Notes under the pieces: model-generated
Told to the model about the DNA's origin: nothing
The model's database searches: none
Seen by the model: only the letters and a program-made list of their open reading frames with translations
Assembly: GCF_001278115.1 (NCBI RefSeq)
Contig: NZ_LIYD01000005.1
Location: forward strand, 3,437,717 to 3,501,716
Reading direction: 5' to 3'
Length of the DNA: 64,000 nucleotides
Source: Flavobacterium akiainvivens
GTDB lineage: Bacteria > Bacteroidota > Bacteroidia > Flavobacteriales > Flavobacteriaceae
Program-made: the position numbers and the translations under genes
Shown: positions 14,603 through 55,342 of the stretch, one piece after another
Position numbering within the stretch: the stretch's first letter is position 1
Layout: the number at the start of each line of letters is the position of its first letter

Positions 14603-15547
14603 TTAGAAATAACGTGGTGAACGTGATACTTTTTTCGGGAAGTTCAAATCAAACAACAGCATGATTTCGTGCGATGCCGGTGTGGTAACGTTAAGGTCGC
14701 TCACAATATGGTCATACGCATAGCCTATCCTCAAATTAGGCGTAATGGCAAAGTTTACCATACCGCCAAAAGAGTCGTCTAACCTGTAGGTAGCGCCTAT
14801 CTCAAAGCGGTCAAAGAACAACGCGTTCAAAGAGCCGTCTATCGATGGGTCGATACCAAAGGCTGATTTCAGCATAAATGAGGGCTTCAGCTTAAAGTTG
14901 TCGTTGATCTGGAATACATAACCACCCGTTAAAAAGTAGTGCGAAACCTCTGAACCAAACCTATAGGCTGTGCCGGTGCCGTTCTGCCTGTAGTCAAGGT
15001 GCTTGCTCTTTAGCATGTTGGGCACTGAAAACGCCAGGTAGTAGTTATCGGTGTAGTAAAATGCACCGGTACCCACGTTAAAATAGGTGTTGTTTATGTT
15101 TTCGGCAAATGCAGGGTCGCTATCATCGGGTACGTTGTTGTACACTTCGCTGAACAAGCCCACATCGTGGAACGTTACACCTGCTTTAATACCCAGGGCA
15201 AGCCTGTGCTGGCCACCCAGTTTAAGGGTATAGCTAAAGTCGGCATATACGTTGGTTTCTTTTACAGGGCCTATCTCGTCAACAATGGCCGATAGCCCAA
15301 GCCCTACGTTTTTGCCTACAGGGCTGTGGCCCGAAAACGTGCCTGTACTTGGTGAGTCTTCAATGTCTACCCACTGCTTGCGGTAGAGTAACCCGAATGA
15401 TAAGTTTTCCTTCGAGCCCGCGTAAGCCGGGTTAATTACGTTCATGTTATACATATACTGCGTGTAGTGCGGGTCCTGCTGTGCAAAAGCATCAACAAAA
15501 CCTACCAACGCAATGAATGCGGCGAAGTAAATTTTTTTAAGTTGCAT
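14603..15547 (-). CDS. PorP/SprF family T9SS outer-membrane protein
   Basis: A 314-residue outer-membrane beta-barrel of the PorP/SprF family. After a signal peptide (residues 1-22) come the family hallmarks: QQDPHYTQYMYNMNVINPAYAGS near the N-terminus, YRKQWVDIEDSP, and the C-terminal IGYAYDHIVSDL ... HEIMLLFDLNF. SprF of F. johnsoniae is needed for secretion of the adhesin SprB and similar type-B-signal cargo. Such genes usually sit directly after their cargo gene; here the upstream neighbour is on the other strand, so the pair is an orphan. A plausible cargo in the window is the type-B protein at 50562-55181. Confidence 0.88.
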   Translation of the reverse strand: MQLKKIYFAAFIALVGFVDAFAQQDPHYTQYMYNMNVINPAYAGSKENLSFGLLYRKQWVDIEDSPSTGTFSGHSPVGKNVGLGLSAIVDEIGPVKETNVYADFSYTLKLGGQHRLALGIKAGVTFHDVGLFSEVYNNVPDDSDPAFAENINNTYFNVGTGAFYYTDNYYLAFSVPNMLKSKHLDYRQNGTGTAYRFGSEVSHYFLTGGYVFQINDNFKLKPSFMLKSAFGIDPSIDGSLNALFFDRFEIGATYRLDDSFGGMVNFAITPNLRIGYAYDHIVSDLNVTTPASHEIMLLFDLNFPKKVSRSPRYF

Positions 15548-38503: not shown

Positions 38504-41500
38504 TTAATAAACAATCTTCTTGCTTACTTTTCCGTTTACAGTGTCAATTTCTACAATCAGTACCTGCTGTGCAGCGTTAAGGTTGTTAATTGAGGTTTGG
38601 GTGGCGTTAATGCCGGTTTGCTCATACAGTTTCCTGCCGCGAACATCATAAATGGTTACACCGTTCATGGTAGCAGTACCGCTGGTAATGTTTATGGCAC
38701 CGTTATTTTGGTACACCATAACCATATTGGCCAGTTCAGGCTGGTTAGTGCCCAGTGCATCGGTAACATATACTACCTCAAAGCGAGAAGTAAATTCACC
38801 CGCAGGAGAGGTAAAGGTATAACCTTCGCCTTCGCTAATGCTTGTAATAGTGCCCAGCAGGTTGTCTTTTATAAAGATTTCCTGGCCTTGCTCAAACACA
38901 CCATCTGCGTTGTGCAGCACAATGCTGTATTCGCCGGCTGCATCTACATTGTAGCCCATAGGCACTACATCAGTATTAACAAACGATGGCCTTGCCTGTA
39001 CTACAAGTTTTTCTTCGCCAAGAATAGACCACAGGTTGCTGGTGCCGCCCAGTAGGGCCCTGGCATCGCGGCCATAGTCAATATCCATGGTAGCAGTGCT
39101 GCTGTATACAAGGGCTGCCTGTGTTGCCATGCCGGCACCTTGTAGGCTTAGCCATATCCTTGATTTCTGGTCTTCGTCCTGGGCAGTCCTAAAGAACTGG
39201 TTGTTGTGCACATTGCCTCTTCTCATGGCAGTGTTAAAGGTTGCAACAGGGTTAGCACCTGCGGTGGTACTGGTTTGTATCAGGAATCCCTGGCCTATGT
39301 TAATGGTCCAGTTGGCCTCATCGCTATCGTTAAAATAGCTGTCCCACTGCATACCGCCATACTGTTCCTCGCCGGCGTTGCCGTTAAGCGCGTGGTTGTA
39401 GGTATAGGTATCCCATGTAAGGGTGGCATAGCTGGTAGCGTTCCAGTTGTTTTTCTTCCTCCAGAAGTACAGTGCCGAACCACTTTGTATTACGCTTGAG
39501 TTAGCCGTAAAGAAGTCGTGTACGTTTATAGCCGATGGGAATGGGTTACCCACAGCTGTATAGCGCTCGCTTATAGTGCTTAGCGGGGTGGTAACAGTAC
39601 CGTTGTGTACTGCGCCGGTAAACACACCTATGTGTTGTGTTGTGCCGGTGCCGGTGTTATAGCCGGTTACGCCAGGCAGGTCGTTTGGCATCCTTATAAG
39701 GTAGCCTTTTGCATTTGCAAAGCTGGTAGTTAGCGGGTTTATAGGCAGGTATTGCTCTTCGTTAGCCGTAGCGTTAAACCCATATTCATAAAACCTGTCG
39801 TTAACTGTAAGGGGTGAAAACGCTTTAAGGTTCTGGCCCGTTACCGGAGACGACCATAGTGTATAGTCAAGCCTGAAAAGGTTGCTGCTGGCGCGTGTTA
39901 CGGTTATGTTACCGGTGTTAGCCTCGGCAGATGTGTCCTGTAGCAGGTGTGCCTCGTTTTCAAGGCTAAAGCTGCTGCCTGCCGCTACGTGTAGCGATTT
40001 GTTAAGGTGCAGTGTGTGGCCCGATGGTATGGTTACCACGGCATTGTTACTTACATAGGCACGGCATCCGTTTAGGTTGGCGGCCACGCTGTAGTTGCCC
40101 GTAAAGTAAATTGTAGTACCTATATCAGGCGTGCCGTTGCTCCATGCACTACCATCCCATGTGGTTTCTTTTTTAGATACTACACCACCTGTTGTAGTAA
40201 CAACTTCAGGATACCCGTTTTGTGTAACCACAGCCCTAAAGTATGCAGGTGTTGTGGTAATATTCATTTGTGCAGGGGTTAAGAACGTTGTGGTAACGTT
40301 AATATTGGTCTTGTTAGTAAATGCAGGGTTATCTGCTTTTTCCCAACGTACCACACCTCCTACATTACCTGTAAGGGTAAGGTTGGTTACAGGTACATCT
40401 GTACACTCAATCACAATGTTGTTTAGCGAGCCTGCTGTAGGTGGTACCGCTACCACTATTATTTGTACGCTTGCCATTTTTCTGGTGCCCCAGGTATTGT
40501 CAATTGCAGTAACGTTGTAGGTAAAAGTACCCGTAGTGGTTGTAGGTGGGGTAAAAGTAGCGCCGGTGCCTAAAACAGTACCATCGCCACCATCAAGTGT
40601 CCATGCATAGCTGTACGTTGAGCCTGTACAGGTTGTATTTGTTATAGTAGTGCCAAGGGTTGGAGTACTACCCACATAGTAAGTGCCTGCACCGGTTGCA
40701 GCCAGGTCAAAATTACTTTTGTTTACTTCATATATTCTTAGTGCCGGTGCGGTGCTAAGGGCTACAAGGGCATTAAACCTTATGGTAATCCTGTTAACTA
40801 TGGCATTAGGCGCAATTTGCAGTGTAGCAATCTGGTTGTTTTGCAACAGGCCAAGTACCTGTGCATTAACCGGAAGCCCCAGTAATGTATTTAAGTTAGT
40901 AGTGTAGGTAGCAGCACCGTTTACACCATAAGTGGTAACCGTTATGCCTTGTATAAGGTTAGCGGCAAGTAGTGCAGGTGGTACCTGTACCCTAAGGTTA
41001 AACTTATCTGTTACAGATGCAGTGCCTTGAAAATAAATAGTTTGCTCTACCCACTCTCCTACAGTTAATGTGCCAAGTGAAAGGTTAGAATAGGTTGTAA
41101 GGTTGTTGTCTATAGCATTTTGGGGGTTTGCTAAAGTAGTGTTGGCAAGGCCTAACACGTTGTATGCATCGTAAGATGTAAATGCCGCGGTGCTACAGCC
41201 GGTAGTGGCGCCTGTAACATAATGAATGTCATACACGTCAAGCAGTTTTGCAGCACCTCCGCCAAGTACGCCGGTTGTTACAGTGTTGGTAATTCTCAGG
41301 CGCCTGTAAGTGTTGTTAAGGGTCAGCCTTATAAAATGCTTGCCCTGTCCATTGGTTACTACCCTTAATTCGTCAGTACCATAACTGCTCGATGCGGTAG
41401 CGTTGTAAACATTGGTGCCTGTGTCGGTCTTTGCCTGTACACCAACAGTCTGGGTACCAATAGTAGCAAAGTTTATAACACCGTTAAGGAAGTTGCCCAG

Positions 41501-41803
41501 TGCACCGCCCAAAAGGCCGCCCAAAAAGTTAGTACTGGGGTCTGCTTCCAGTTGAATGTACAGAGGGGTGTTAACCGGTACATCACTGGCAAATTGAACT
41601 TCAAGGAATTTAACCAGCGTGCCAGACACAGATCCTAAGGTTGCCTTTGTGGTTGTTGATGCGTCAAAAGCGTTTGCTCCGTCAGTAACTGATGCAGATG
41701 ACGACTGAACGCTTGCAGGTCTTACGGTTGTTAACTGTGCCTGGGCAGACAGCCAGAACACGCAGAATAACAACGTCATTTTTAGGGGGAATTTTGCTCT
41801 CAT
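38504..41803 (-). CDS. T9SS-exported multidomain protein with type C sorting signal
   Basis: A 1099-residue exported protein. The signal peptide is residues 1-22 (MTLLFCVFWLSAQAQ region). Residues about 25-370 are two related beta-sandwich-like blocks, each with a phrase such as DAFDASTTTKATLGS or NAIDNNLTTYSNLSLG, which resemble discoidin/carbohydrate-binding openings. Residues about 375-455 are PKD/Ig-like (TYSYAWTLDGGDGTVLGTGATF). From about residue 545 the protein is homologous to the C-termini of the proteins at 687 and 42002 (FRLDYTLWSSPV, GYLIRMPNDLP, YFWRKKNN, VVPMGYNV), ending in the sorting signal VTIYDVRGRKLYE ... KKIVY. It is probably surface-attached or released; ligand and function are unknown. 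It lies downstream of the 2431-residue paralogue, separated by a terminator, so it is an independent unit. Confidence 0.85.
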   Translation of the reverse strand: MRAKFPLKMTLLFCVFWLSAQAQLTTVRPASVQSSSASVTDGANAFDASTTTKATLGSVSGTLVKFLEVQFASDVPVNTPLYIQLEADPSTNFLGGLLGGALGNFLNGVINFATIGTQTVGVQAKTDTGTNVYNATASSSYGTDELRVVTNGQGKHFIRLTLNNTYRRLRITNTVTTGVLGGGAAKLLDVYDIHYVTGATTGCSTAAFTSYDAYNVLGLANTTLANPQNAIDNNLTTYSNLSLGTLTVGEWVEQTIYFQGTASVTDKFNLRVQVPPALLAANLIQGITVTTYGVNGAATYTTNLNTLLGLPVNAQVLGLLQNNQIATLQIAPNAIVNRITIRFNALVALSTAPALRIYEVNKSNFDLAATGAGTYYVGSTPTLGTTITNTTCTGSTYSYAWTLDGGDGTVLGTGATFTPPTTTTGTFTYNVTAIDNTWGTRKMASVQIIVVAVPPTAGSLNNIVIECTDVPVTNLTLTGNVGGVVRWEKADNPAFTNKTNINVTTTFLTPAQMNITTTPAYFRAVVTQNGYPEVVTTTGGVVSKKETTWDGSAWSNGTPDIGTTIYFTGNYSVAANLNGCRAYVSNNAVVTIPSGHTLHLNKSLHVAAGSSFSLENEAHLLQDTSAEANTGNITVTRASSNLFRLDYTLWSSPVTGQNLKAFSPLTVNDRFYEYGFNATANEEQYLPINPLTTSFANAKGYLIRMPNDLPGVTGYNTGTGTTQHIGVFTGAVHNGTVTTPLSTISERYTAVGNPFPSAINVHDFFTANSSVIQSGSALYFWRKKNNWNATSYATLTWDTYTYNHALNGNAGEEQYGGMQWDSYFNDSDEANWTINIGQGFLIQTSTTAGANPVATFNTAMRRGNVHNNQFFRTAQDEDQKSRIWLSLQGAGMATQAALVYSSTATMDIDYGRDARALLGGTSNLWSILGEEKLVVQARPSFVNTDVVPMGYNVDAAGEYSIVLHNADGVFEQGQEIFIKDNLLGTITSISEGEGYTFTSPAGEFTSRFEVVYVTDALGTNQPELANMVMVYQNNGAINITSGTATMNGVTIYDVRGRKLYEQTGINATQTSINNLNAAQQVLIVEIDTVNGKVSKKIVY

Positions 41804-42001: not shown

Positions 42002-45000
42002 TTAGTAAACGATACGTTTTGTAACGGTTCCTTTTACGGTTTCAATCTCTACAATCAAAACCTGCTGGGCAACGCTCAGGCGGCTTATAGAAGCCTCCGT
42101 GGCATTAATGTTGCCCTGCTCATAAATCTTGGTGCCGCGAACGTCATAAAGGGTTACGCCGGTCATTTCTATTGCACCCGATGTAATGTTTATGGCGCCG
42201 TTTTCACGGTACACCAGTATGGCGTTGTCAAGCTCCGGCTTATCAGTACCCAGGGCATCGGTTTCGTATAATACTTCAAACCTGGTGTCAAAAGTACCTG
42301 CGCCGCTTGTAAAGCTGTAACCTGATTGTTTAAGGTTGTGTACAGTACCTGTAAGGTTGTCTTTCAGGTAAATGTTTTGGGCCACCTGTGCAAATGCACC
42401 GTCTACATGGTCAAGGCTAAGGGTGTACTGGCCTGCGTTTGTAACGCTAAAGCCCATAGGCACCACATCTGTAACATCAAACACAGGTTTGGCCTGAATG
42501 TTAAGGTTGTCCTGTCCGGCCTTGCTGTATAGTGTAGCAGTACCATCGGCAAAGGCGCGTGCATCATAACCATAGTCAAGGCCTGTTGTGCCCTGTGGCA
42601 TGTAGCTAACCAGCGCCTGGCTAAAGGCAGCTGTACCGGTAAGGTTTATCCACCAGCGCGATACGGCCGGGGCATTGTTGTTGTTCTGCGTCCTGAAAAA
42701 CGGCTGGCCGTTAGCAGCCGGGGCCGGTTTCCTCATGGCGTTGGTAAACTGTATTTCGGTAGCAGGGCTAACATCGCCGCGCAGTTTTACCACAAAGCCC
42801 TGTCCCGGAGATATAATCCAGTTCTCGTTAAAGTCTTCGCTGTTTTCATCGTTACCACCGTAATAGAAAGCACCGTCGTTAGCACCGCCCATGTCTCCGC
42901 CTTCGGCCTGGTTTTCGGTAAAGCCTGCCATGGTAAGGTGGGCATAGCTGGTTTCAAGCGCGTTATTTTTCTTCCTCCAGAAGTAAATACCTTCGCCGGC
43001 CTCAAGCACGCCGTTGTTCTGGTCAAAGAAGTTTATAACGCTTATGGGCGATGCATAAGGGTTGGCCACAGCTATGTAATGGTTTACAAGTTCGCCTGCG
43101 GCTACGCCTACAGTACCGTTGTTCAGCACGCCGTTAAATATACCGTTGTACGGAATAGCCGTATCGCCGGTGTTGTAGCCGTTTACATCAGGCAGGTCAT
43201 TCGGCATACGGATAAGGTATCCTGTACCGGCTGCAAATGGTGTAGTGGCAGGGCTTTCTACAGCAAGGTAGTTTTCTTCGCCTTCAGCGTTAAGTCCGTA
43301 TGTATAAAAACGGGTTGGTGCCGTTTCAGGGCTAAAGTCAAGCAGCATCTGGTTGTGCACCGGCGAACCCCATAGTGTATAATCAAGCCTGAAAAGCTCA
43401 TTGCTGTTGCGCAGTACTGTTGCGCTGCCTGTGTTGGCCACATCGTTTACCTGTATAAGGGCGGCGTTGTTTTCTACGGTAAGGGTACCGTTGGCAGCCA
43501 CTTCGTTTTGCACGGTTAGCGTAGCGCCCGTTTTAACGGTAAGCACCGCACCGGTAGCAACCGTAAGGCTAAGCGCCTGTGCATTTGTTGTAGTAACCTG
43601 CGGGTTAAAAGCAGATGCGCCTATTGTAGCCGGGGTAGCAGCAGTAGGCACACCACCGCAAGACCAGTTGCCGGCATCGTTCCAGTTGTTGTTATTGGCA
43701 GCGCCGGTCCAGGTGTTTTGGTTTACGGTTATGGCAGCAGTACCGGTAAGGCCGGCAGGTACAGCCTGGCAGGTAGCGTCTTCTACAGCCACAAGGGTGT
43801 AGGTAACGTTAGCCTGTGGTGTAACATCAAAAGTATAAGTGCTGGCGGTAACGTTGTTTACCACTACGTCTTCGGTACCGTTGTTGTAGGTAATATTCCA
43901 CGGTTGTGCGCCGGTAAGGGCAATGCTAACCTGTGTTGTAGCGCCATAGCATATAGCTGCATCAGTTGCAGATATAACCGCAGTAGGTGCCTCGTTAACC
44001 ACTACTGTAGTGCTGGCATTAACCGCGCCCATACAGGCAGGGGTAACATCTGTACGTACCATGGTTATAATTTCAAGCAGGTGGCTGCCTGCCGGTAGTG
44101 TTACTGTGAAAGAGCCTTTACCATCGGCATCGGCAGTTACGGCAACCACAATGTCTTCATTGCCGTCTATAGTATAGCTAACGTTTGCCGAGCTGTTGGC
44201 AATCATACCTTCAAGGCTTATTACAGATGCACCACCCTGGCATACCGTTGCAGGAGTACCCGCAATAACCGCCGTAGGGGCAGGGTTAACCTGTAGTGTA
44301 GCACTGTTGTTAGTGCTAAAGGTTTGGGCACATGCAGGGGCTACGCTCCTTGTAAGGGCGGTAACCACCACCTGCTGGCCGTTGTTAGCAAAAGTAACCG
44401 GTAGTGTAAAGCTGGCGTTTCCGGTTTCATTGGCCGTAACAGCCGCCTGTTGTGCAGCGCCGCCGTTTACAGTATAATCTACCGTAAAGGCAGTATTGGC
44501 CGTAAGTCCCGAAAGGATTATTTCAGCAGTACCATCTGTACACACCGCTGAGGTGCTAACACCCGTAAGAGTAGGTATGGCGTTGATAACAATATCGCTG
44601 CCGTTATCGTTAGTGCTTCCGGTAATTACAAGTCCCGAAGAAAGGTGTATAACCCTTACCCTGTAGTTGCCTGCTGCAAATGTATTTGGCAGGGTAGCGG
44701 CAATTGGGCTTGTAGTACTGGCATTGCTTATTATGTTTTCAAATAGCGTTGGGAACACACCCGCCGCATCAGAATGCTGCACGTAGAAGTTACCCGCACC
44801 AAAGTTGCCTTCTGTAGTAAACGCTACCGAAATGCCGTTTGCAGTACCGGCGCAGTAAGGACCATAAGCCGCAGCTGTAGTGATAACGCTTGGGGCGGTT
44901 TCTACCACACCGTTAATGTTTACCACTTTAGTAATGCCGCCGCCTGTAAAGGTAAGCGTACCGTTGTATTCGCCTATGGCAAGGCCATCGGCAAGTTTTA

Positions 45001-48000
45001 CAAAAATGTTAGGGTTTTCAAGGTTTATTGTAGTACCCGAGTAGCTTATGCTGCCGCTTGTGCCATAAGAAACCTGGTTGTTAGTACTAATCCTGAAACC
45101 TGTGCTTGCCGTAACAGTTATGTTGCCGTTAGTAGCATTGGTAAGGTTTTCACCCACTATGCTTTGCAGCTGTACCGGCTGGTTAGTGGCAGCCTGGCCC
45201 GCATAAGCATGAAGCCCTGTTACCGGCGATGGCGCAACGGTAAAGTTCCTTACCGTATATACAAGCGTTTTAGTATCGCCCGATGGGCTGTAGTAGCTCG
45301 ATACATTAAGTGTAATGTTGTACACGCCAACCGGGGTTGTGCCGTCAAAAACAATCTTGCGGTTAGGCGCATCATACGTTGCACCTGCCGGAAGGTTAGT
45401 AGCGCTGTAGGTAAGCTGCGGCGTACCCGTAGCTGTAATTACATATTCGTCTGTAGCGCCAAGCATACTGTTGTCTGTAGTAGCGCTGGTTATAGCAGGG
45501 GCCTGTGTAGGCGTGCCAAACATACCCTTAACGCGGAATGCATTTTCACTTCCGTTAAGGTAATAGTTGCCGCCATCTCCTATAGGCTGCATCCTGAATT
45601 TAATAGTAGTGCCTCCGGTTAGGTTTTGAAGTGCAGTAATACCGGAAAGACTATGGCTGTTGGCAGAACCTGTAGTATTTGTACTTCCGGTATTTGCCGT
45701 GCCTATTTCAGCAAAAGCTCCACCGTTTACAGAATAAGACAACCTGTAGCTCTGAGGGCCGCTGTTAGACCTCCTTGTGTTGGTGCTTATTGTTGTAAGG
45801 CTAAGGTTGTTCCCTGTGTCTACAGTAATAGTAAAAGTAAAACTGTTGTTGTCTGTAGAGTTACCGGTGCTCCAGCCTCCTGAGCCACCCCATGAGTTGG
45901 CGGCCGCCTGAGTACCGTTAGAGCCCGAAATGTTTGAGCCACGTACCATTTGTACAGCTACGTTGTCAATGTTGGCATGGGTAAATGCTGGTGCAAATGT
46001 AGTAGTACCAAAGTCAGACTGGCCATCAGTGTTCCAGTATACAACATCAGTCTCTCCGGATGGAGGGTTGCCCACTACAAGCCAGCCTGAATTTAGTGCT
46101 GTAAACGTATAGTTTGTGGCCTCTCCGCCGCTAAGGTTTACCGGGTAAGCACCTGCCGAAGCTGTACTTGTAGCGGTTGTAGTAGCCGTAGGGGCTGTAA
46201 AGGTAGCGCCTGTGCCCGGTGCAGTAGCATCGCTGCCCACAATACCGTCATACCTAATGGTGTATGATGTAGGTAGTCCTGCACCTATATTCACATTAAA
46301 CGGATCTACAGCAGCAGTACCTATAACCGCATCGGCTGTAGCCGTAATGTTTTTAGGGGTAATAACACCGGTAAGGCCCGGTTGTGTAAGGGTATAGTTA
46401 GCCGCCTGCGCACCGCCAAGGGTTATGGTTATGGCATTGCCTTCGCCTGCGTTCCTGGTAGCATATGTACCGCTTGTTGCCGTTACCGCATCAGGAGCTA
46501 TAACACCGTCAAGCACTACACCTGTAAAGGTAGCGGTAGTGTTGCCGTTATATACTTTAGCAGGGTTTACACCGGCAATTGTAGCCGTAATGGTTTTAGG
46601 GCTTATAGTAGCTGTAACACCTGTTGGCTGGCTCACAGTATAGTTAGCCGCGTCATCACCTGTAAGTGCAAAGCCTGAAACGGTTACCGGTTTGCCTGTA
46701 GCCGCAGTAGCATTATTAAATACCGCAGTAGCATTTGTAGCATCAGGGGCAACAGCATCACCTTCTATAAGGCCGTTAAGTGTAGCTGTGCCGCTTAATG
46801 TGGCAGTATCGTTTCGGTCATAAACCTTATCGTTAGCCGTTACACCGGTAATGGTAAGGGCAAGGGGGGTAATGTTTGCAGTAGCAGTACCTGTTGCAGG
46901 CTGTAGCATATAGTTGCCGGCCTGTGCACCACCCAGCGTATAGGTAAGGTTAACTGTTTTTTCGTTACCTGCAGCAGGGGTTTCAAAAACACCTGTAGCG
47001 CTTACCGTAACTGCATCCGGGGCAATAACGCCGCTAAGGCTTCCGCCCGATACGGTTGCTGTTGTAGCACCGTCATATATCTTGTTGGCTGCTGTTGCGC
47101 CACTTGCCGTTATAGGCTTAGGCGTAATAGTACCTGTAGTAAGTATGGCATCTTCGGCAAGTACATAGTTGGCAGCATTGTTACCGGTTAAAATAAACTC
47201 GGCTACCACTCCTACTTCCTCACCTGCATTAACTGCTTCAAAAACCGAATTCTCGGTTACAAGAACCACTTCATCCCCGGCTATAACGCCATCAAGCTGG
47301 CCCGTTGCAACGGCGCTGTCTGTACCGTCATACACTTTGGTATCTACCACTACGTTAACAATGGTAATGGTTTTAGGGTTTACCGTTACAATCACGCTTT
47401 GTGTAGCGCCGTTGTAGTCGGCATCGCCTTCCTGGTAAGCATACAGTGTAAAAGTACCTGCGCTGTAAAGTTCAAGGGTGTTGTTTACCACATTGGCAAT
47501 AGCCTGCTCTGCCTCAGTTACATAGTAGCTGGTCATGGCAAGCCCGCTGTTAGAGGTGGCATATCCGGTAAGGCCATAAGGCGCATCGCCATAAGTAAAT
47601 GTGGCAGGGCCTGCAAAAGTTATAACCTGGTCTTCTTTAGCCGGGTCGGTAATATCGGCAAATACCGTAACAGGAGCCAGCGTATAGTTGGCGGCCTGTG
47701 CACCTGAAAGTGTGTAGCCTGCAACGGTAACAATTTTGCCACCGCCTATTTCGGCATTTTCAAAAGTACCCACAGGGGTACCCGAAACCGTTACATCATC
47801 ACCCGACACAAGGCCGTTAAGCTGTGGAGTGCCGCTTATGGCGGCAGTAGTGTTACCGTCATATACTTTGTTGGCAGCGCTAATACCGCTAACGGTTAGC
47901 GGGGCAGCCGTAATTTCGGCTGTAAGGCCGGCAGGGCTTTGCGGGTATGCAATAGTATAGTTAGTATTATCTACACTATAGCCACCGTTTATAATAACCT

Positions 48001-49297
48001 GTTGTGTACCGGCATTAGCCGATGCAAAAGCAGCCTGGGGGGTGCCGCTAAGTGTGGTAGCGTCGCCTTCTACAAGGCCCGTAAAGGTAGGGTCTGCACT
48101 AAGGGTTGCAATGGTAGAGCCGTCATATATCTTACCGTTTGCAGTACCGCCGCTTAGGGTAAGAGGCTTAGGGGTAATAGCACCTGCAAGGTTAGCAGGC
48201 TGTGTAAGTGTATAGTTTGCTGCGTGTGTACCCGTTAGCGTAAGGGGGGCATCAAGGGTTACAGGCTTGTTAGTTGCAGCATCGGCATTGTTATATGTTG
48301 CGGTATAAGCGCCAAGGGCTACATTTGTACTGCCGGTTACAAGGCCGCCAAATGTTGGTGTGCCTAAAGAGGCTGTATTAGTACCGTCATACACCTTTGT
48401 GGTGTTTATGTTTGTAAGTGTGATTGTTTTAGGGTTTACAGTAATGATAACATTACGTGTTGCACTTCCGGCAGTATTAGTTGCCGTTATTTTAAGGTTG
48501 TATGTTCCTGCCGGGGTAGTGTTTGCTATTGCAACAGCACCAGAGCTTATAGTTATGCCTGCAGGCACGGCAGTTGTGGGTGCATTTGCCGAAAGAGAGA
48601 ATGTAGGTGTAGGGGTGCCTGTTGAGGTAAATGGCAGGCTGGTTGCGGTTCCGTGTGTAACGGTTGCACTGGTGCTGCTGCCACCAAGTGTTGGGGCTAC
48701 AGATGTGCTACTTACCGTACCGTTTACCTGGAAGTTATTAAATCTAAGGTTTCCGGTGCTGCTTGCATTGTGTCCCCAAATCCTTACAGTAAGTGCACCT
48801 GTAAGGTTTGAAGGAAGCCCTGTGCTTGCCGTAAATGAATCAAGGCTTCCGGTACTTTCACTTGAAATAGTCTGGTTGCTTATTACCGTTGTACCGGCTG
48901 ATGAAAAGCCGTTTGTACTTATTTGTATGGTAACCCTTGTAGGGCCCGCACCGCTTCTTCCTAAACGGAAAACCAGTGACGAATAGGATACCTGTTTACC
49001 TGTAGAAGGGGTTATGGTATACTGTAGGTATTTGCCGGAAGTAGAAAAGTTTCCGGTGTTCCAGGTAGATGCATTTCCTATAGAAGATCCACCGCCGTCA
49101 TTTCCGTTTTGGTATGCAATGCTGTTTGCCGAAACACTGACTGATGATGCTGTAATGCCGGTTACAACATCTGATGCAGTTGCATTACCTTCAAATTCAT
49201 ACATTAACAATTGCTGCCCCTGGGAGACGGAGGCTGTTAAAAAGAGGGCCAGTAGGGCGAGGCTCCTCAATACTCTCTGATGTAGTAGTTTCATCAT
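42002..49297 (-). CDS. Giant T9SS adhesin-like protein with YDG/MBG repeats
   Basis: A 2431-residue exported protein. After a signal peptide (to about residue 28) comes a beta-rich domain (30-200) and a putative-Ig linker. Residues about 290-1080 contain seven YDG-type repeats, each opening with KVYDGxxTA or a variant (KIYDGSTI, KVYDRNDT, KVYNGNTT), plus an MBG-like insertion (FAGPATFTYGDAPYGL). These modules are typical of long adhesive stalks. A second lectin-like block follows (about 1115-1290), then Ig-like domains with single Cys pairs, and from about 1860 the shared C-terminal module (FRLDYTLWGSPV ... VVPMGFSV) and the sorting signal (VTLYDVRGTKIYE ... KRIVY). No enzyme motif was found. 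Surface adhesion is inferred from architecture. It is monocistronic by the terminators on each side. Confidence 0.87.
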   Translation of the reverse strand: MMKLLHQRVLRSLALLALFLTASVSQGQQLLMYEFEGNATASDVVTGITASSVSVSANSIAYQNGNDGGGSSIGNASTWNTGNFSTSGKYLQYTITPSTGKQVSYSSLVFRLGRSGAGPTRVTIQISTNGFSSAGTTVISNQTISSESTGSLDSFTASTGLPSNLTGALTVRIWGHNASSTGNLRFNNFQVNGTVSSTSVAPTLGGSSTSATVTHGTATSLPFTSTGTPTPTFSLSANAPTTAVPAGITISSGAVAIANTTPAGTYNLKITATNTAGSATRNVIITVNPKTITLTNINTTKVYDGTNTASLGTPTFGGLVTGSTNVALGAYTATYNNADAATNKPVTLDAPLTLTGTHAANYTLTQPANLAGAITPKPLTLSGGTANGKIYDGSTIATLSADPTFTGLVEGDATTLSGTPQAAFASANAGTQQVIINGGYSVDNTNYTIAYPQSPAGLTAEITAAPLTVSGISAANKVYDGNTTAAISGTPQLNGLVSGDDVTVSGTPVGTFENAEIGGGKIVTVAGYTLSGAQAANYTLAPVTVFADITDPAKEDQVITFAGPATFTYGDAPYGLTGYATSNSGLAMTSYYVTEAEQAIANVVNNTLELYSAGTFTLYAYQEGDADYNGATQSVIVTVNPKTITIVNVVVDTKVYDGTDSAVATGQLDGVIAGDEVVLVTENSVFEAVNAGEEVGVVAEFILTGNNAANYVLAEDAILTTGTITPKPITASGATAANKIYDGATTATVSGGSLSGVIAPDAVTVSATGVFETPAAGNEKTVNLTYTLGGAQAGNYMLQPATGTATANITPLALTITGVTANDKVYDRNDTATLSGTATLNGLIEGDAVAPDATNATAVFNNATAATGKPVTVSGFALTGDDAANYTVSQPTGVTATISPKTITATIAGVNPAKVYNGNTTATFTGVVLDGVIAPDAVTATSGTYATRNAGEGNAITITLGGAQAANYTLTQPGLTGVITPKNITATADAVIGTAAVDPFNVNIGAGLPTSYTIRYDGIVGSDATAPGTGATFTAPTATTTATSTASAGAYPVNLSGGEATNYTFTALNSGWLVVGNPPSGETDVVYWNTDGQSDFGTTTFAPAFTHANIDNVAVQMVRGSNISGSNGTQAAANSWGGSGGWSTGNSTDNNSFTFTITVDTGNNLSLTTISTNTRRSNSGPQSYRLSYSVNGGAFAEIGTANTGSTNTTGSANSHSLSGITALQNLTGGTTIKFRMQPIGDGGNYYLNGSENAFRVKGMFGTPTQAPAITSATTDNSMLGATDEYVITATGTPQLTYSATNLPAGATYDAPNRKIVFDGTTPVGVYNITLNVSSYYSPSGDTKTLVYTVRNFTVAPSPVTGLHAYAGQAATNQPVQLQSIVGENLTNATNGNITVTASTGFRISTNNQVSYGTSGSISYSGTTINLENPNIFVKLADGLAIGEYNGTLTFTGGGITKVVNINGVVETAPSVITTAAAYGPYCAGTANGISVAFTTEGNFGAGNFYVQHSDAAGVFPTLFENIISNASTTSPIAATLPNTFAAGNYRVRVIHLSSGLVITGSTNDNGSDIVINAIPTLTGVSTSAVCTDGTAEIILSGLTANTAFTVDYTVNGGAAQQAAVTANETGNASFTLPVTFANNGQQVVVTALTRSVAPACAQTFSTNNSATLQVNPAPTAVIAGTPATVCQGGASVISLEGMIANSSANVSYTIDGNEDIVVAVTADADGKGSFTVTLPAGSHLLEIITMVRTDVTPACMGAVNASTTVVVNEAPTAVISATDAAICYGATTQVSIALTGAQPWNITYNNGTEDVVVNNVTASTYTFDVTPQANVTYTLVAVEDATCQAVPAGLTGTAAITVNQNTWTGAANNNNWNDAGNWSCGGVPTAATPATIGASAFNPQVTTTNAQALSLTVATGAVLTVKTGATLTVQNEVAANGTLTVENNAALIQVNDVANTGSATVLRNSNELFRLDYTLWGSPVHNQMLLDFSPETAPTRFYTYGLNAEGEENYLAVESPATTPFAAGTGYLIRMPNDLPDVNGYNTGDTAIPYNGIFNGVLNNGTVGVAAGELVNHYIAVANPYASPISVINFFDQNNGVLEAGEGIYFWRKKNNALETSYAHLTMAGFTENQAEGGDMGGANDGAFYYGGNDENSEDFNENWIISPGQGFVVKLRGDVSPATEIQFTNAMRKPAPAANGQPFFRTQNNNNAPAVSRWWINLTGTAAFSQALVSYMPQGTTGLDYGYDARAFADGTATLYSKAGQDNLNIQAKPVFDVTDVVPMGFSVTNAGQYTLSLDHVDGAFAQVAQNIYLKDNLTGTVHNLKQSGYSFTSGAGTFDTRFEVLYETDALGTDKPELDNAILVYRENGAINITSGAIEMTGVTLYDVRGTKIYEQGNINATEASISRLSVAQQVLIVEIETVKGTVTKRIVY

Positions 49298-49514: not shown

Positions 49515-50558
49515 TTACTGTAAAATTACCTTAAATACCTCAATATGAGCCTTGTCAGATAATTCTATTAGATAAATGCCCGGTGCGTTGCCTGTTATAT
49601 CTATAACATTATCCTGCAATTTGTGTGAAACCCGCTGCCCTAAAGGGTTTACAACGCGTATGGAATATTCAATATTTGCATTTTGAATACTAACAATGCC
49701 TGTATTTATTGTTGGATATATAACAATTTGTGATGTTTCTTTAATGTTAAGACCCAATTCCTGCCACGTATCCTCTGCTGCGGGGCCGTTCCAAATCAGG
49801 GTTGCCAGGTAGGGGTTGTCTATAAAAGGGTTGCGGTTGCCCTGCATATCCTGTAGTATGGTGTTGCGGTTTTTTTCATACTGGCTCACCGGGTCTTCCT
49901 GGTTCCACTCCAGGAAAATATTAGGCATATCGGTCATGGGGCTGTAAGAGCTGCTGCCGCTGCCCACCACATTGGCCTCGCATTGTGTGCCGTAGCGCAC
50001 ATACATATACATCATCATACGGGCAATATCGCCGCGCCACTCATCCCCCGGATAAAAAAAGCCACCGGTAATGGTGGTGGCATGCCCGCTGCCGTCGGCA
50101 AAACGGCGGTTGCTGCGGCTGCTGTTCATGTTGGCATCTATGGCGCGCAGGTGGTGGGCATCGGCCCCCGGGCCTGCATATTCTAAATTAGGGTTACCCA
50201 AAGACCTGGGGAACACGTGTTCCCTAACCCACAGCCCGCTGCAAGACAGTGTGTGGCAATTGTCGTCCTTATCGCGTGTACGGTCGTTATTGGTATCGGC
50301 ATCGGTATCATCATACCCATAAATCAGGAACACATTTTCCGGGTTATCGGGGTCAAGGTCGGCTGCCTCAAGGGCAGTCCAAACGTCTGGCGTGTAGGTA
50401 AGCTCGGTGGTATGCGTTTGCGTAACAAGCGTTGCCAGCTGCTCTTTAAGGGCATTGCCGGTAAGGGTAAGGTCTACGCCCTCATAATACTCAAAATAGT
50501 CAGGCAGCTGGGCAAAAGCACAAAACGGAACAAACAGCAGTGCATATAGCTTTTTCAT
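49515..50558 (-). CDS. Secreted endonuclease I family nuclease with T9SS signal
   Basis: A 347-residue extracellular nuclease of the EndA/Nuc-M (endonuclease I) family, which degrades DNA and sometimes RNA. The signal peptide is residues 1-16 (MKKLYALLFVPFCAFA). The catalytic beta-beta-alpha-metal region reads LWVREHVFPRSLG and is followed by GADAHHLRAIDANMNSSRSN, with the conserved His, His and Asn/Arg residues. FYPGDEWRGDIARMMMYMYVRY is also typical. The last 70 residues are a type A T9SS sorting domain (IVIYPTINTGIVSI ... GIYLIEL). It starts 3 bases after the stop of the SprB-like gene, so the two are co-translated. A likely role is use of extracellular DNA or remodelling of biofilm. Confidence 0.9.
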   Translation of the reverse strand: MKKLYALLFVPFCAFAQLPDYFEYYEGVDLTLTGNALKEQLATLVTQTHTTELTYTPDVWTALEAADLDPDNPENVFLIYGYDDTDADTNNDRTRDKDDNCHTLSCSGLWVREHVFPRSLGNPNLEYAGPGADAHHLRAIDANMNSSRSNRRFADGSGHATTITGGFFYPGDEWRGDIARMMMYMYVRYGTQCEANVVGSGSSSYSPMTDMPNIFLEWNQEDPVSQYEKNRNTILQDMQGNRNPFIDNPYLATLIWNGPAAEDTWQELGLNIKETSQIVIYPTINTGIVSIQNANIEYSIRVVNPLGQRVSHKLQDNVIDITGNAPGIYLIELSDKAHIEVFKVILQ

Positions 50559-50561
50559 GGC

Positions 50562-53500
50562 TTATCGTATTAAAGAAAAGTGCGCCTTAAACTCCCTGTT
50601 TTGTCCGTTTGTAGCGCGGTATGACACCGTAAACCAGTAATCGGTAGCCGGCAGGTCATAGCCGTTATAAGTACCATCCCACCCTCCGGCACCCGGCCTG
50701 AAGGCAGAAATAAGCTTGCCGTAGCGGTCATAAATAAACACGCGGGCGTTGTACTGGCCTATAAGCCCTTTTATGTTCCAAACGTCTTTAGTGCCGTCGT
50801 GGTTAGGGGTAAAATAATGCGGGTAGTTAAGCGCAAACACTTCAAGCTCTATAACACCACAGCCGTTTTTATCGCGCACGGTAACGGTATAAAAGCCATC
50901 GGTAATACCGCTAAAATAAGGTTCATCCTGGTAAGGGCCGCCCTCAAGGCTGTATTCATAATCGCCACTGCCGCCGGTAACGGTTATGCTAATCGTCTGG
51001 TTGGTATGAAAATCCTGGCCCACTTCGGCTGTGGCTATAGCCAGTGATGAGGTACCTACCGTTGTAGACGCGCTGCTGCTGCAACCGCTCGCGGCATTGG
51101 TAGCCGTAACGGTATACGTACCCGGCTCGTTAACGGTAATAAACGCTGAGGTATCGGGCAGTGCATCGCCGTCTTTTTCCCATGCAAAAGTATAGGTGCC
51201 GTTATCGGGCAGGTTGCTGTCTATAATAGCAGGGCTGTAAGTGCCGTCTGTAAGGTCTTCGCAAAGGTACAGTTTTGCGGGTGGAGCAGGGTTGGGCAGC
51301 GGGGTTACCACTATAGCCATAGTTGCCACATCAGTACAAACAGTCCCCACGGTGTAGCTAATGGTTACGCTGCCGGGGTTTACCGGGGTTACAAGGCCGG
51401 TGGCATCTACCGTGGCAACGTTGGTATTGCTGCTGGCCCATGTGCCGCCTGTTGCGGTATTGGCAAGCTGAAGGGTATCGTCTATACACACCACGTTATT
51501 GCCTGTGATAACACCCGGCGATGGTGCAGGGGCAGGCTGTGGGTTAACGGTTATGGCAAGCGTATTGGTACAGCCCGGGTTGTTCCTTACCGTTAGGGTA
51601 TACGGTCCCGGCGCTACATTTAAAAATACCGGCGACCCCTGGAAGCTTACCCCGTCAAGGCTGTAGGTATGGCCCATGCCAAGGGGGGCTGTAACGGTAA
51701 CGGTTGCTGTGGCGGTGTCGCAATCCGGCTGCTGTATGTTAGCTACAGGTACAACAGGCTGTGCAGGTGCAGCATTTATAATTTGTTGTGCTACTGCCTG
51801 GCAGCCACCGCTGTTAAATACCGTTATGGTGTGGTTGCCCTGTGCCACCGGAGTAAATATGGCTGATGTTTGCACAGGCCCATTGTCTATGCTATAGGTG
51901 TAGCCCGTCCCGGTAGGTGCGGTAACGGTTATGGTGCCAAATGCTGTAGTACAGTCGGGTTGGGTGTGTGAAAGCACTACTGCCGGAACTGCCGCCGGTG
52001 GCTGGTTTACAACCTGTGTTGCTGCCGCAGAAATACATCCGGCGGCATTCCGTACAATTATGGAGTAACTGCCCGGGGCAAGGTTGCCAAAGGTAGTGCC
52101 CGGCTGCCAGTTAAGGCCATTGTTTATACTGTAGGTTAACCCTGAACCTGTAGGTAATGATACGGTTATACTGCCCGTGGTTTGCCCGCAAAGCGGCTGC
52201 TGTGCCGTGAGTTGTGGCGTGGCCGGGGCAGCAGGTACTGCATTTATGGTCCTTACGCTTACGGTAGAAACACACCCTTCTACATTCATGGCGGTTACAG
52301 GGTAGGTGCCCGGCGTTAGTGTAAATACAGGCGATGCCTGGTAATCTGTTCCGTTAACCGAATAGGTAATGCCCGTGCCTGTTGGGGCTGTTACGGTTAT
52401 GGTTCCGGTAGTATCAGTACAGCCGGGATTTTGTACTATGGCCTGCGGTGTAGCCGGTACCGGTGGGGCAGCGCCAACAACCCGCTCTGTAGCCGGTGAT
52501 ATACATCCGGCGGCGTTTTTAACGGTTATGTTATAGGTGCCTTCGGTAAGGGTAAACGTAGCTGATGCCACATAAGTAGTACCGTTGCTGCTGTAGGTAA
52601 AGCCTGTTCCTGTTGGTGCAGTTACCGTAACGGTTGCTGCGGTAGTGCAGGTAGCAGGGGTATAGTTAAGTGCAGGTGCTGCCGGTGCGGTAGGCTGTGG
52701 GTTTACCACAATGTTTCCGGTAACTGATGTACATCCGTTAGCATTTTGCGTGGTAATAACATACGTTCCTGCCAAAACATCAAATTCGGTTGCGGTTTGC
52801 CAGGTATCGCCATTGTCTATGCTATATTGGTAGCCTGTGCCTGTAGGCGATATTATGCTAATAGTGCCGTTTGCGTTATCACAGTCGGGGTGGTTTACTG
52901 ATGTAATTGCTACGGCAGGTACCGCCGGTTGTGGGTTCACCACAATATCCGGTGTAACCGATGTACACCCGCCCGCGTTTTGGGTGGTAATAACATACGT
53001 TCCGCCCGGTACGTTAAATACCGGTGTGGTTTGCCAGGTGTCGCCGCCGTTAATGCTGTACTGGTATCCGGCACCTGTAGGGGCCTCTATAGTAATAGTA
53101 CCGTTAACGTTATCACAATCAGGGTCGGTTACATTAGTTGTAGCAACAGCAGGAGTTACAGGTTGTGGGTTTACCACAATGTTCGCACTGATTGATGTAC
53201 ATCCGTCTGCGTTTTGGGTTATAATGGTATAGGTTCCGGCAGGTACTTCAAAAACCGTTTCAGTTTGCCAGGTATCGCCATTGTCTATGCTGTATTGGTA
53301 GCCTGTGCCTACAGGTGCCGTTACGGTAATAGTGCCGTTAGTGTTATCGCAGTCAGGATGGCTTGCAAAAGCAGTTGCGGGAGCCGGTGCGCCCGGCTGC
53401 GGGGCTACTACAATATTTGATGTAACCGATGTGCATCCGGCAGCATTTTTGGTAACAAGAGTGTAAAAGCCAACCGTTACTTCAAACACTGTTTCAGTCT

Positions 53501-55181
53501 GCCAGGTATCGCCATTATCTATACTGTATTGATATTCTGCACCCACAGGGCTGGTTACAGTCAGGGTGCCGTTAGGGTTGGTACAATCCGGGTCGGTGGT
53601 TTGCACAATGGCAACATCAGGCTGTGCGGGTTGCGGGTTTACCACAATATTTGGTGTAACCGATGTACACCCGTCGGCGTTTTGTGTAGTAACAACATAC
53701 GTTCCGGCCGGTACTTCAAATACCGTTTCGGTTTGCCATGTATCGCCGCCATCTATGCTGTATTGGTAGCCTGCCCCGGTAGGGCTGTTTATGGTAATGA
53801 TACCTGTAGCGGTATCACAGTCAGGGTGGCCAACAATAGTATTGGCTACAGCCGGTGCCCCCGGAACCGGGTCTACAACTATAGGGTCAGTCTCTGCGCT
53901 GCATCCTGTACTGTTTTGGACTATGATTGTATATGTGCCGCTGGCTACTTCAAACTCGGGTCCGGTTTGCCAGGTGTCGCCACCGTCTATACTGTATTCA
54001 TAATCGGTTCCAACAGGCTCGGTTATTGTTATAACACCCGGTGTAGTACAGGTAGGCTGGGTAACGATATTCTCAGGGTCATCAAGCGTGCCTATGGTTA
54101 ACTGTGCACTATAGCTGTACAGCGTGCAGGTGGGCGATGTAATTACGCAAAAATATTGTGCGCCGTCTAACGTTTGTGGTGCGCTGCTTATTACAAAAGT
54201 ATCGGTAGTGCCACCGGCATATATACCGCCGTTGGTAACGTTTACAACTGTGCCCAATGTATTAAAGGTCTTCCACTGGTAGGTAAAGCCGGAGCCGCTT
54301 ACGCCACTTGAAAACACGGCTTCCTGGCCTGCGCAAATTTCAACCGGGTCAGGGTTCAGTACAGATGGGGTAGGTAAAGAGGGTGGGTTAGCGGTGTGTA
54401 TACCCAGGTTATCGCAGCTCTCTTGGCTGTAGGTATTCCAGTCGGCTGCTGCATACGTTGCAGCAGGTGCTATTACTTCCGGTTTACGGATAATGGAGTA
54501 GCCCACTTCGTTAGGGGCATGTACCACATCTATAATAGCACCGTTTTTTCTGAGCTTAATAGCATCCTGTGCATTTATACCATTACTAAGTACCGCATCT
54601 GGGGTTATACCGCAGGGTGCTGTTCCACTCCTTACAAGGTAGGTAGAATATGGGGCTATAGAGCCAGGTAATGTTAAAACATATCCGGATGTAGGGTTTG
54701 CATCGGTGTAGGTGCCATAACGTTCCAGCACATATTCTCCGTTAAAGGTTACGGTGTTTCCGCTTGGGTTGTATAGCTCTATTGCACCCGGCGTCAATGC
54801 CTGGGCATCATATACCTCAGAAATATAAATTTCGGTATACCCGCACGCGCTTATAAGGGGTGTAAATGTAGTGGCAGATGTTGCCGTACAGCCTCCGTTT
54901 GCCGTTACGGTCACAGTGCCTGTAGTAGCGTCTTCGGGCACTACTGCACTGATGTTAGTATCTGATACGATGGTAAAATCTGCCAGGTGGCCGTCAAAAT
55001 ACACTGCGCTTACCCCGCTGCCGGATTCAAAGCCGGTGCCGGTAAGGGTTACAACTGTATTGGCCGGGCCGCTAACAGGAAAGACTGATGTTATAAACGT
55101 GTTGGTACAGGCCTGTGAATAACTGTTATAACAGCATAAAGCAAAAAACACGAAAAAACAAATAGTAATTTTTTTAACCAT
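50562..55181 (-). CDS. SprB-like repeat adhesin with type B (CHU_C) C-terminus
   Basis: A 1539-residue exported protein. After the signal peptide (to about residue 24) come an IPT/TIG domain (30-108, SVFPVSGPANTVVTLTGTGF), a lamin-tail domain (113-230, TEIYISEVYDAQALTPGAIEL), an Ig-like domain, and eleven SprB-type repeats of about 78 residues (about 370-1220). Five or six of the repeats are nearly identical (GYQYSIDNGDTWQT ... NPQP). A Big_2-like domain follows (TATGGTWASSNTNVATVDATG). The last 85 residues (YFTPNHDGTKDVWNIKG ... VFIYDRYGKLI ... GGWDGTYNG) are the gliding-motility-type type B signal. SprB of F. johnsoniae, with the same repeat type, is a moving adhesin for gliding. Such cargo needs a SprF/PorP partner; none is adjacent here. 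Confidence 0.88.
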   Translation of the reverse strand: MVKKITICFFVFFALCCYNSYSQACTNTFITSVFPVSGPANTVVTLTGTGFESGSGVSAVYFDGHLADFTIVSDTNISAVVPEDATTGTVTVTANGGCTATSATTFTPLISACGYTEIYISEVYDAQALTPGAIELYNPSGNTVTFNGEYVLERYGTYTDANPTSGYVLTLPGSIAPYSTYLVRSGTAPCGITPDAVLSNGINAQDAIKLRKNGAIIDVVHAPNEVGYSIIRKPEVIAPAATYAAADWNTYSQESCDNLGIHTANPPSLPTPSVLNPDPVEICAGQEAVFSSGVSGSGFTYQWKTFNTLGTVVNVTNGGIYAGGTTDTFVISSAPQTLDGAQYFCVITSPTCTLYSYSAQLTIGTLDDPENIVTQPTCTTPGVITITEPVGTDYEYSIDGGDTWQTGPEFEVASGTYTIIVQNSTGCSAETDPIVVDPVPGAPAVANTIVGHPDCDTATGIITINSPTGAGYQYSIDGGDTWQTETVFEVPAGTYVVTTQNADGCTSVTPNIVVNPQPAQPDVAIVQTTDPDCTNPNGTLTVTSPVGAEYQYSIDNGDTWQTETVFEVTVGFYTLVTKNAAGCTSVTSNIVVAPQPGAPAPATAFASHPDCDNTNGTITVTAPVGTGYQYSIDNGDTWQTETVFEVPAGTYTIITQNADGCTSISANIVVNPQPVTPAVATTNVTDPDCDNVNGTITIEAPTGAGYQYSINGGDTWQTTPVFNVPGGTYVITTQNAGGCTSVTPDIVVNPQPAVPAVAITSVNHPDCDNANGTISIISPTGTGYQYSIDNGDTWQTATEFDVLAGTYVITTQNANGCTSVTGNIVVNPQPTAPAAPALNYTPATCTTAATVTVTAPTGTGFTYSSNGTTYVASATFTLTEGTYNITVKNAAGCISPATERVVGAAPPVPATPQAIVQNPGCTDTTGTITVTAPTGTGITYSVNGTDYQASPVFTLTPGTYPVTAMNVEGCVSTVSVRTINAVPAAPATPQLTAQQPLCGQTTGSITVSLPTGSGLTYSINNGLNWQPGTTFGNLAPGSYSIIVRNAAGCISAAATQVVNQPPAAVPAVVLSHTQPDCTTAFGTITVTAPTGTGYTYSIDNGPVQTSAIFTPVAQGNHTITVFNSGGCQAVAQQIINAAPAQPVVPVANIQQPDCDTATATVTVTAPLGMGHTYSLDGVSFQGSPVFLNVAPGPYTLTVRNNPGCTNTLAITVNPQPAPAPSPGVITGNNVVCIDDTLQLANTATGGTWASSNTNVATVDATGLVTPVNPGSVTISYTVGTVCTDVATMAIVVTPLPNPAPPAKLYLCEDLTDGTYSPAIIDSNLPDNGTYTFAWEKDGDALPDTSAFITVNEPGTYTVTATNAASGCSSSASTTVGTSSLAIATAEVGQDFHTNQTISITVTGGSGDYEYSLEGGPYQDEPYFSGITDGFYTVTVRDKNGCGVIELEVFALNYPHYFTPNHDGTKDVWNIKGLIGQYNARVFIYDRYGKLISAFRPGAGGWDGTYNGYDLPATDYWFTVSYRATNGQNREFKAHFSLIR
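52685..54075 (-). repeat. Near-identical SprB-type coding repeats
   Basis: About six consecutive units of roughly 234 bases inside the adhesin gene. The protein phrases GYQYSIDNGDTWQTETVFEV and CTSVT.NIVVNPQP recur in each, and the DNA is close to identical in several places (for example TGCCAGGTATCGCCATTGTC on the plus strand). Five more diverged units follow towards 51530. Confidence 0.85.
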
Positions 55182-55203: not shown

Positions 55204-55211
55204 CAAAAGTA
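55204..55211 (-). promoter_or_regulatory. -7 promoter element of the SprB-like gene
   Basis: TACTTTTG on the minus strand fits TAnnTTTG, 22 bases before the start codon. Confidence 0.5.
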
Positions 55212-55314
55212 GCCCGTAAATTAATCTAATGAGGAGATTTCAAATTAACGAAATTTTAAGAAAATGTTATAAAATTTTTTGTGCGTATTTTTTAGTTATT
55301 TTGGTTGTATAAAA

Positions 55315-55336
55315 AAACCACGCCTAAGCGTGGTTT
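55315..55336 (-). terminator. Terminator of the 124-residue exported protein gene
   Basis: AAACCACGC and GCGTGGTTT arms with a 4-base loop and a T run on the minus strand. Confidence 0.9.
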
Positions 55337-55342
55337 TGTATC

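Follow-up and report, generated by a model that had tools for sequence, protein, structure and literature searches.

Organization of the locus

In the window, a stretch of 64,000 nucleotides from Flavobacterium akiainvivens, the gene of a type B adhesin lies directly upstream of that of a secreted Endonuclease I (EndoI), and a gene for a YDG-repeat protein comes next. The features of the region, together with a shuttle gene from another part of the window and the SprB/SprF candidates of the genome, are given below.

55314..55337, minus strand: terminator-like hairpin, palindromic, upstream of the adhesin, between it and the preceding gene
50562-55181, minus strand: type B adhesin, open reading frame of 1539 aa
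54861..55097, minus strand: TIG/IPT domain, residues 29-107 (PF01833 2.5e-9 and fold match)
54522..54836, minus strand: lamin tail domain (LTD), residues 116-220 (PF00932)
51492..54281, minus strand: repeat region of the adhesin
52692-53829, minus strand: 234-bp tandem array of 4.9 copies, within the repeat region
50565..50828, minus strand: type B CTD, residues 1452-1539 (TIGR04131 1.4e-29)
49515-50558, minus strand: secreted EndoI, open reading frame of 347 aa
49812..50462, minus strand: Endonuclease I domain, residues 33-249, R-E-H at 112-114 (PF04231)
49518..49721, minus strand: type A CTD, residues 280-347 (TIGR04183)
42002..49297, minus strand: next gene, 2431-aa YDG-repeat protein, type C signal 39.1 bits, just under the cut-off of 40
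14603..15547, minus strand: PorP/SprF-like shuttle, about 35 kb from the adhesin, without C-tail CxC
C1:3639359-3648896: SprB/SprF candidates

The original prediction placed the start of the nuclease 3 bases after the adhesin stop, and both reading frames are indeed found there, the intergenic bases being 50559-50561; judging from this gap, the co-production that it proposed is likely. The two different T9SS signals were likewise found, with a type B CTD on the adhesin and a type A CTD on the nuclease, so that the three successive genes, the YDG-repeat one included, appear to carry type B, type A and type C signals. The type C signal and the TIG and LTD domains of the adhesin come in addition to the original prediction. 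With the hairpin lying upstream of the adhesin, transcription of the pair likely has a start of its own; the hairpin was listed on the plus strand, it is palindromic and the minus strand likewise ends in T. The total of promoter and terminator sites in the scan of this region equals the shuffled expectation. Also upstream of the adhesin, TACTTTTG (55204-55211) resembles the flavobacterial -7 motif.

Two further type C sorted proteins are present in the window, at 687-5105 and 38504-41803 (59.3 and 52.4 bits, cut-off 40).

Domains of the adhesin and the nuclease

The type B CTD of the adhesin is clear (TIGR04131 102.1 bits, cut-off 35), while its LTD scores close to the threshold, with 30.7 bits against a PF00932 cut-off of 34.3 in the protein scan and 37.4 in the genome scan; LTDs of related adhesins are above it (43.5, 39.9 and 38.3 bits). 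Residues 115-299 also match NF033680 weakly (34.3 bits, cut-off 1300). The predicted model of the TIG domain (residues 24-111) matches IPT/TIG-type chains, with a best Z of 13.1 and rmsd of 2.1-2.2, in a TIG-LTD model of mean pLDDT 67.4 from which Foldseek and VIA compared the TIG part alone; the fold matches listed include no lamin chain, which excludes nothing. The LTD stretch had no credible match among PDB sequences. The strongest LTD match of the genome is a 679-aa protein at C1:1974788.

By its domain (PF04231 161.9 bits, cut-off 25, E 2.8e-47) and motifs, the nuclease is an Endonuclease I, with predicted DNA cleavage. The R-E-H and N..R.N motifs, presumably catalytic in Endonuclease I, are both present, and are found in 99/99 and 82/99 of the related domains, respectively. 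Its type A CTD is above the cut-off with TIGR04183 (25.5 bits versus 23) and under it with the Pfam model PF18962 (22.6 versus 27), and a PDB match of the nuclease profile A2 (E 3e-8) is 8glk_D, a CTD chain named Endonuclease I that we infer to be NucA. The structure model of the nuclease had a mean pLDDT of 48.6 and was set aside. NucA (Fjoh_4723) is an EndoI with a type A CTD, described as T9SS cargo in the F. johnsoniae translocon (PMC10994853), being thus comparable to the window nuclease as a predicted nuclease exported by this system; however, the NucA passages of that paper mention no adhesin partner, whereas the window nuclease adjoins one. In addition, the secretion table of a Riemerella gldM mutant contains an Endonuclease I with a T9SS CTD, with a relative change of 0.26 (PMC6549377).

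The genome has a second EndoI (L002/L032), whose same-strand neighbour is a 404-aa gene with no adhesin features by the profiles used. From its N-terminus, this neighbour is possibly an rRNA methyltransferase, and a gene of 404-405 aa is also found beside EndoI in L041-L045. Six tandem EndoI reading frames are present on one short contig of G020 (L046:4404-12042), with stop codons inside several of the matches.

Relation of the adhesin to SprB

The adhesin was originally called SprB-like, which holds for its CTD but not for its repeat family or gene context. It shares with SprB and other type B adhesins (TIGR04131) the type B CTD, long repeats and 57% CTD identity to the SprB candidate of the genome, a 2762-aa type B protein at C1:3639359 with a SprF-like gene directly after it. 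In a comparison comprising 24 of the 26 type B CTDs of the genome, the closest to the window adhesin were those of this candidate and its near-copy (57% each), the others reaching up to 55%; a location on the gliding track is therefore possible for the adhesin. Unlike SprB, it has a TIG-LTD head, a nuclease downstream instead of sprF, and repeats below the cut-off of the SprB repeat model PF13573 (10.9 bits, E 0.37, cut-off 28), which match the BNR/Asp-box and Reelin models better; PF13573 is also absent from the matches listed for the SprB candidate.

Regarding the shuttles, the genome has five PorP/SprF-like genes and one fragment, none of which adjoins the adhesin, the position directly downstream being taken by the nuclease, and the window adhesin is an 'orphan' type B substrate. 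Among the five proteins, one of which is cut short with its tail unseen, the C-tail CxC is present only in the SprF-like protein next to the SprB candidate; twin cysteines of F. johnsoniae SprF were reported to form a disulfide to GldK (PMC12635249). In the same species, one orphan shuttle is described as common to three orphans, and a SprB fusion with the CTD of one orphan reached the track in 3% of cells, with most foci static (PMC12618676).

Three of the PorP/SprF-like genes (window 14603-15547, C1:3016518-3017516 and C1:2784510-2785265) are more than 90% identical to each other, which suggests a recent duplication; the last one is truncated, and its tail is found in another frame. Among the SprB-class CTDs at C1:3647378, C1:2821038 and C2:3054, the first two are 99% identical and the third scores the same as the first, these being either paralogues or assembly duplicates. 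The TIG-LTD head of the window adhesin groups with that of the second TIG-LTD adhesin of the genome (L156:6175-10002), together with heads from relatives, four of first adhesins and one of a second adhesin (92/97), in a tree made with the first-listed domain match per protein, with two rows dropped and three partial, to be taken as a hint only. This grouping, set against the SprB-like class of the CTD, could possibly reflect recombination between tandem adhesins.

Conservation of the gene pair in Flavobacterium

The pairing is not unique to this genome: ten genomes, the window and nine other Flavobacterium, have the orthologous nuclease directly after a type B gene, with gaps between -1 and 24 nt, namely 3 (window), 4, 5, -1, 11, 12, -1, 24, 9 and 8 nt. 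The nuclease scan of the genome contigs gave 344 matches, 330 of them being relatives, and the best 80 of these 330 loci were kept, with the nuclease standing alone in 22 and as part of a longer reading frame in 58 (L071 and L072, among the 80, are cut by the contig end). A type B adhesin lies directly upstream in six of the 22 stand-alone loci (L048, L050, L052, L053, L054 and L056), and in L049 and L057 (F. cerinum) the contigs begin inside a type B CTD that ends 24 and 9 nt before the nuclease; the other 14 stand-alone loci among the best 80 of 330 have no adjoining type B adhesin. These eight, the window and G239 (L172) make up the ten genomes; F. suaedae and F. salilacus are examples of species with the pair. 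The adhesins of G110 and G251 are each interrupted by a contig break in the repeats, and the unjoined halves were taken as one gene. In relatives, the nuclease comes after a tandem of two type B adhesins.

The nucleases of the paired loci have drifted to about 60-65% identity, and the order adhesin-then-nuclease was kept in the nine other genomes. Adhesin and nuclease distances also correlate (r 0.52, p 0.014, 9 genomes). Across 299 genomes of the genus, the adhesin N-terminal profile matches 126 at E 1e-8 and the nuclease 103 at 1e-60; considering a strong class, the adhesin N-terminus (>300 bits) is found in nine, the nuclease (>440 bits) in nine and both in eight (Fisher 5.6e-14, with post hoc thresholds and kinship ignored). 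We estimate a chance of about 1% that one of the EndoI genes would have a type B gene just upstream, given 26 type B CTDs, two EndoI genes and an assumed 4000 genes, which, together with the recurrence in nine other genomes, argues that the pairing is more than chance.

Different arrangements were also seen. G214 has both adhesins with no nuclease between (L174), the flanking gene being kept as judged by eye, and a 47% EndoI elsewhere (L183); G259 has a strong-class nuclease without a strong-class adhesin; in G141 both are there but apart (L176 and L177); and in L051, L035 and L036, which belong to the paired clade, the nuclease is present but no adhesin adjoins it. In 20 further TIG-LTD regions from 19 genomes of the genus and family, no EndoI or EEP nuclease was found by profile; two of these regions, L194 and L195, are adhesin tandems whose downstream genes can be read, and in L185, L193 and L196 the adhesin itself is cut by the contig end. 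In a control, 12 expected proteins were recovered with the EndoI profile, three of them outside the training set at 36-42% identity, and none in L174; the EEP profile control covered its own members only. Consequently, TIG-LTD surface proteins are not tied to nucleases in general, and in one clade an adhesin cluster may already have been present when the nuclease was inserted into it.

Pfam scans of the gene that follows the nuclease covered nine relatives, a set without L057, and showed fn3 and LTD in seven (L048, L051, L052, L053, L054, L056 and L172), so the nuclease sits among LTD proteins in most relatives. This gene has fn3 without LTD in L050, and in L049 is a YDG-repeat protein without LTD, as in the window. 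Its type C signal is above the cut-off in the three tested (L048, L050 and L172).

Fused endonucleases and nuclease phylogeny

The same modules are found in single polypeptides. Ten large secreted fusions of 1706-2074 aa (L064:9959-16183, L067:9968-15928 and eight others) all have EndoI, the SprB repeat and a type A tail, and nine of the ten have each of LTD, fn3 and a second nuclease domain, PF03372 (EEP). Mid-size fusions, 44 of which are considered here as a subset, have EndoI in every case, a type A tail in 37 and LTD in 35. The EndoI-fn3-LTD-EEP-SprB fusions of Tenacibaculum, Cellulophaga, Yeosuana, Mariniflexile and others thus resemble the window pair, but they differ from it in being one polypeptide with a type A tail, usually with two nuclease domains, and in their separate EndoI clade (98/91). 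The LTDs of the adhesin and the fusions are about 25-32% alike among the matches listed.

The nuclease tree comprises 55 of the 99 rows, after omission of five long branches and 39 further rows of mid-size fusions. In this tree, the paired nucleases fall within a set of 12 rows (98/97), separate from the fusions. A single clade of the eight rows labelled paired is not rejected (p-AU 0.214), in trees where L057 is labelled unpaired though paired and L049 is left out; an earlier tree, rooted on a long branch, was not relied on. As the clades are apart, the fusions indicate that these modules go together and not that the pair originated by splitting, and gene fission from a fused ancestor is not supported. 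No paper on the adhesin-nuclease pair or on EndoI-SprB fusions was found among open-licence PMC texts.

Possible roles of the pair

The abutting genes, with their domains, sorting signals and conservation, are a clade-specific variant of known T9SS cargo arrangements. Our tentative reading, to which we give somewhat less than an even chance, is a clade-specific operon that jointly puts out a DNA-facing surface adhesin and an extracellular endonuclease. A SprF-like shuttle would export the type B adhesin and keep it on the cell surface, where the TIG-LTD head would hold extracellular DNA or a DNA-rich matrix, the role of the LTD being the weakest link. The nuclease would be exported through PorV, lose its CTD and be released or attached near the cell, then cut the DNA held by the adhesin, resulting in nutrient release or a looser matrix, and the split pair would be the two-chain equivalent of the one-chain EndoI-LTD fusions of other Flavobacteriaceae.

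Regarding the LTD, it occurs in the nuclease ExeM, and its bacterial function is described as unsettled, being called membrane-directing by some (PMC6085458) and DNA-associated by others (PMC4486849). ExeM-type nucleases are similar in having an LTD linked to a secreted nuclease, and the weak NF033680 match of the adhesin is counted with this similarity; however, they combine LTD and EEP nuclease in one chain, while in the window the adhesin bearing the LTD is a protein of its own and the nuclease belongs to EndoI, and ExeM without its LTD was reported to clear DNA in vivo almost like the wild type (PMC6085458). Bacteroidota, among them Lutibacter and related Flavobacteriaceae, are considered important for extracellular DNA turnover in marine sediments (PMC8289736).

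A joint role on extracellular DNA is favoured by the pairing in ten genomes, the LTD on the downstream gene in seven of nine relatives and the EndoI-LTD and EndoI-SprB fusions, to which the co-occurrence, the distance correlation, EndoI as T9SS cargo and the LTD of ExeM can be added; the LTD-nuclease fusions seen elsewhere also speak for some activity on extracellular DNA, which may include the DNA uptake, or the release from or attack on biofilms, that were originally suggested. Against it are counted the 20 nuclease-free TIG-LTD regions, G214 (L174), the unpaired L051, L035 and L036, the next gene without LTD in the window, L049 and L050, the low likeness between adhesin and fusion LTDs and the DNA clearing by ExeM without LTD. 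The rival reading is a T9SS cargo island, where a self-sufficient secreted DNase would have been inserted into an older LTD-adhesin tandem operon in one Flavobacterium clade, sharing expression and export without a joint function and scavenging DNA alone. Adhesin tandems without nuclease (L194, L195 and L174), nucleases without an adjacent adhesin (L055, L051, L035 and L036) and the second EndoI beside its 404-aa gene are expected from such an island, but the order maintained in nine other genomes despite the divergence of the nucleases, and the same modules joined in fused proteins, are less so. This explanation is also given somewhat less than an even chance, and a joint device on extracellular DNA is only slightly more likely, both being almost equal. 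If the joint function on extracellular DNA is true, T9SS type B adhesins, usually studied for gliding, would be linked to extracellular DNA turnover, and a role would be offered for bacterial LTDs.

It is rather unlikely that the pair works as a release device, with the adhesin sticking to a DNA-rich matrix that the co-made DNase cuts, so that the cell glides on or disperses. The SprB-class CTD and the likely co-expression point in this direction, and so does the reported role of extracellular DNases in promoting the dispersal of biofilms of several species (PMC6085458); however, no sprF-like gene adjoins the adhesin, and type A cargo need not stay near it.

Movement of the nuclease together with the adhesin, as originally claimed, is not supported by what is known of their routes. 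In F. johnsoniae, type A cargo is reported to use PorV and type B cargo cognate PorP/SprF-like shuttles. Where a protein goes depends on its CTD: even an amylase was placed on the gliding track by a SprB CTD, and a SprB fusion bearing the type A CTD of that amylase, AmyB, was released (PMC12618676). Co-production of the pair is thus likely, and co-movement is not supported by the separate routes, although the type A protein RemA, partly static and partly mobile on the surface, leaves some room for it (PMC12618676). As a long shot, contact with the TIG-LTD head would recruit the nuclease to a gliding-track adhesin, and a mobile DNase on the cell surface would then sweep over extracellular DNA and cut it, with the EndoI-LTD-SprB fusions as its one-chain counterparts.
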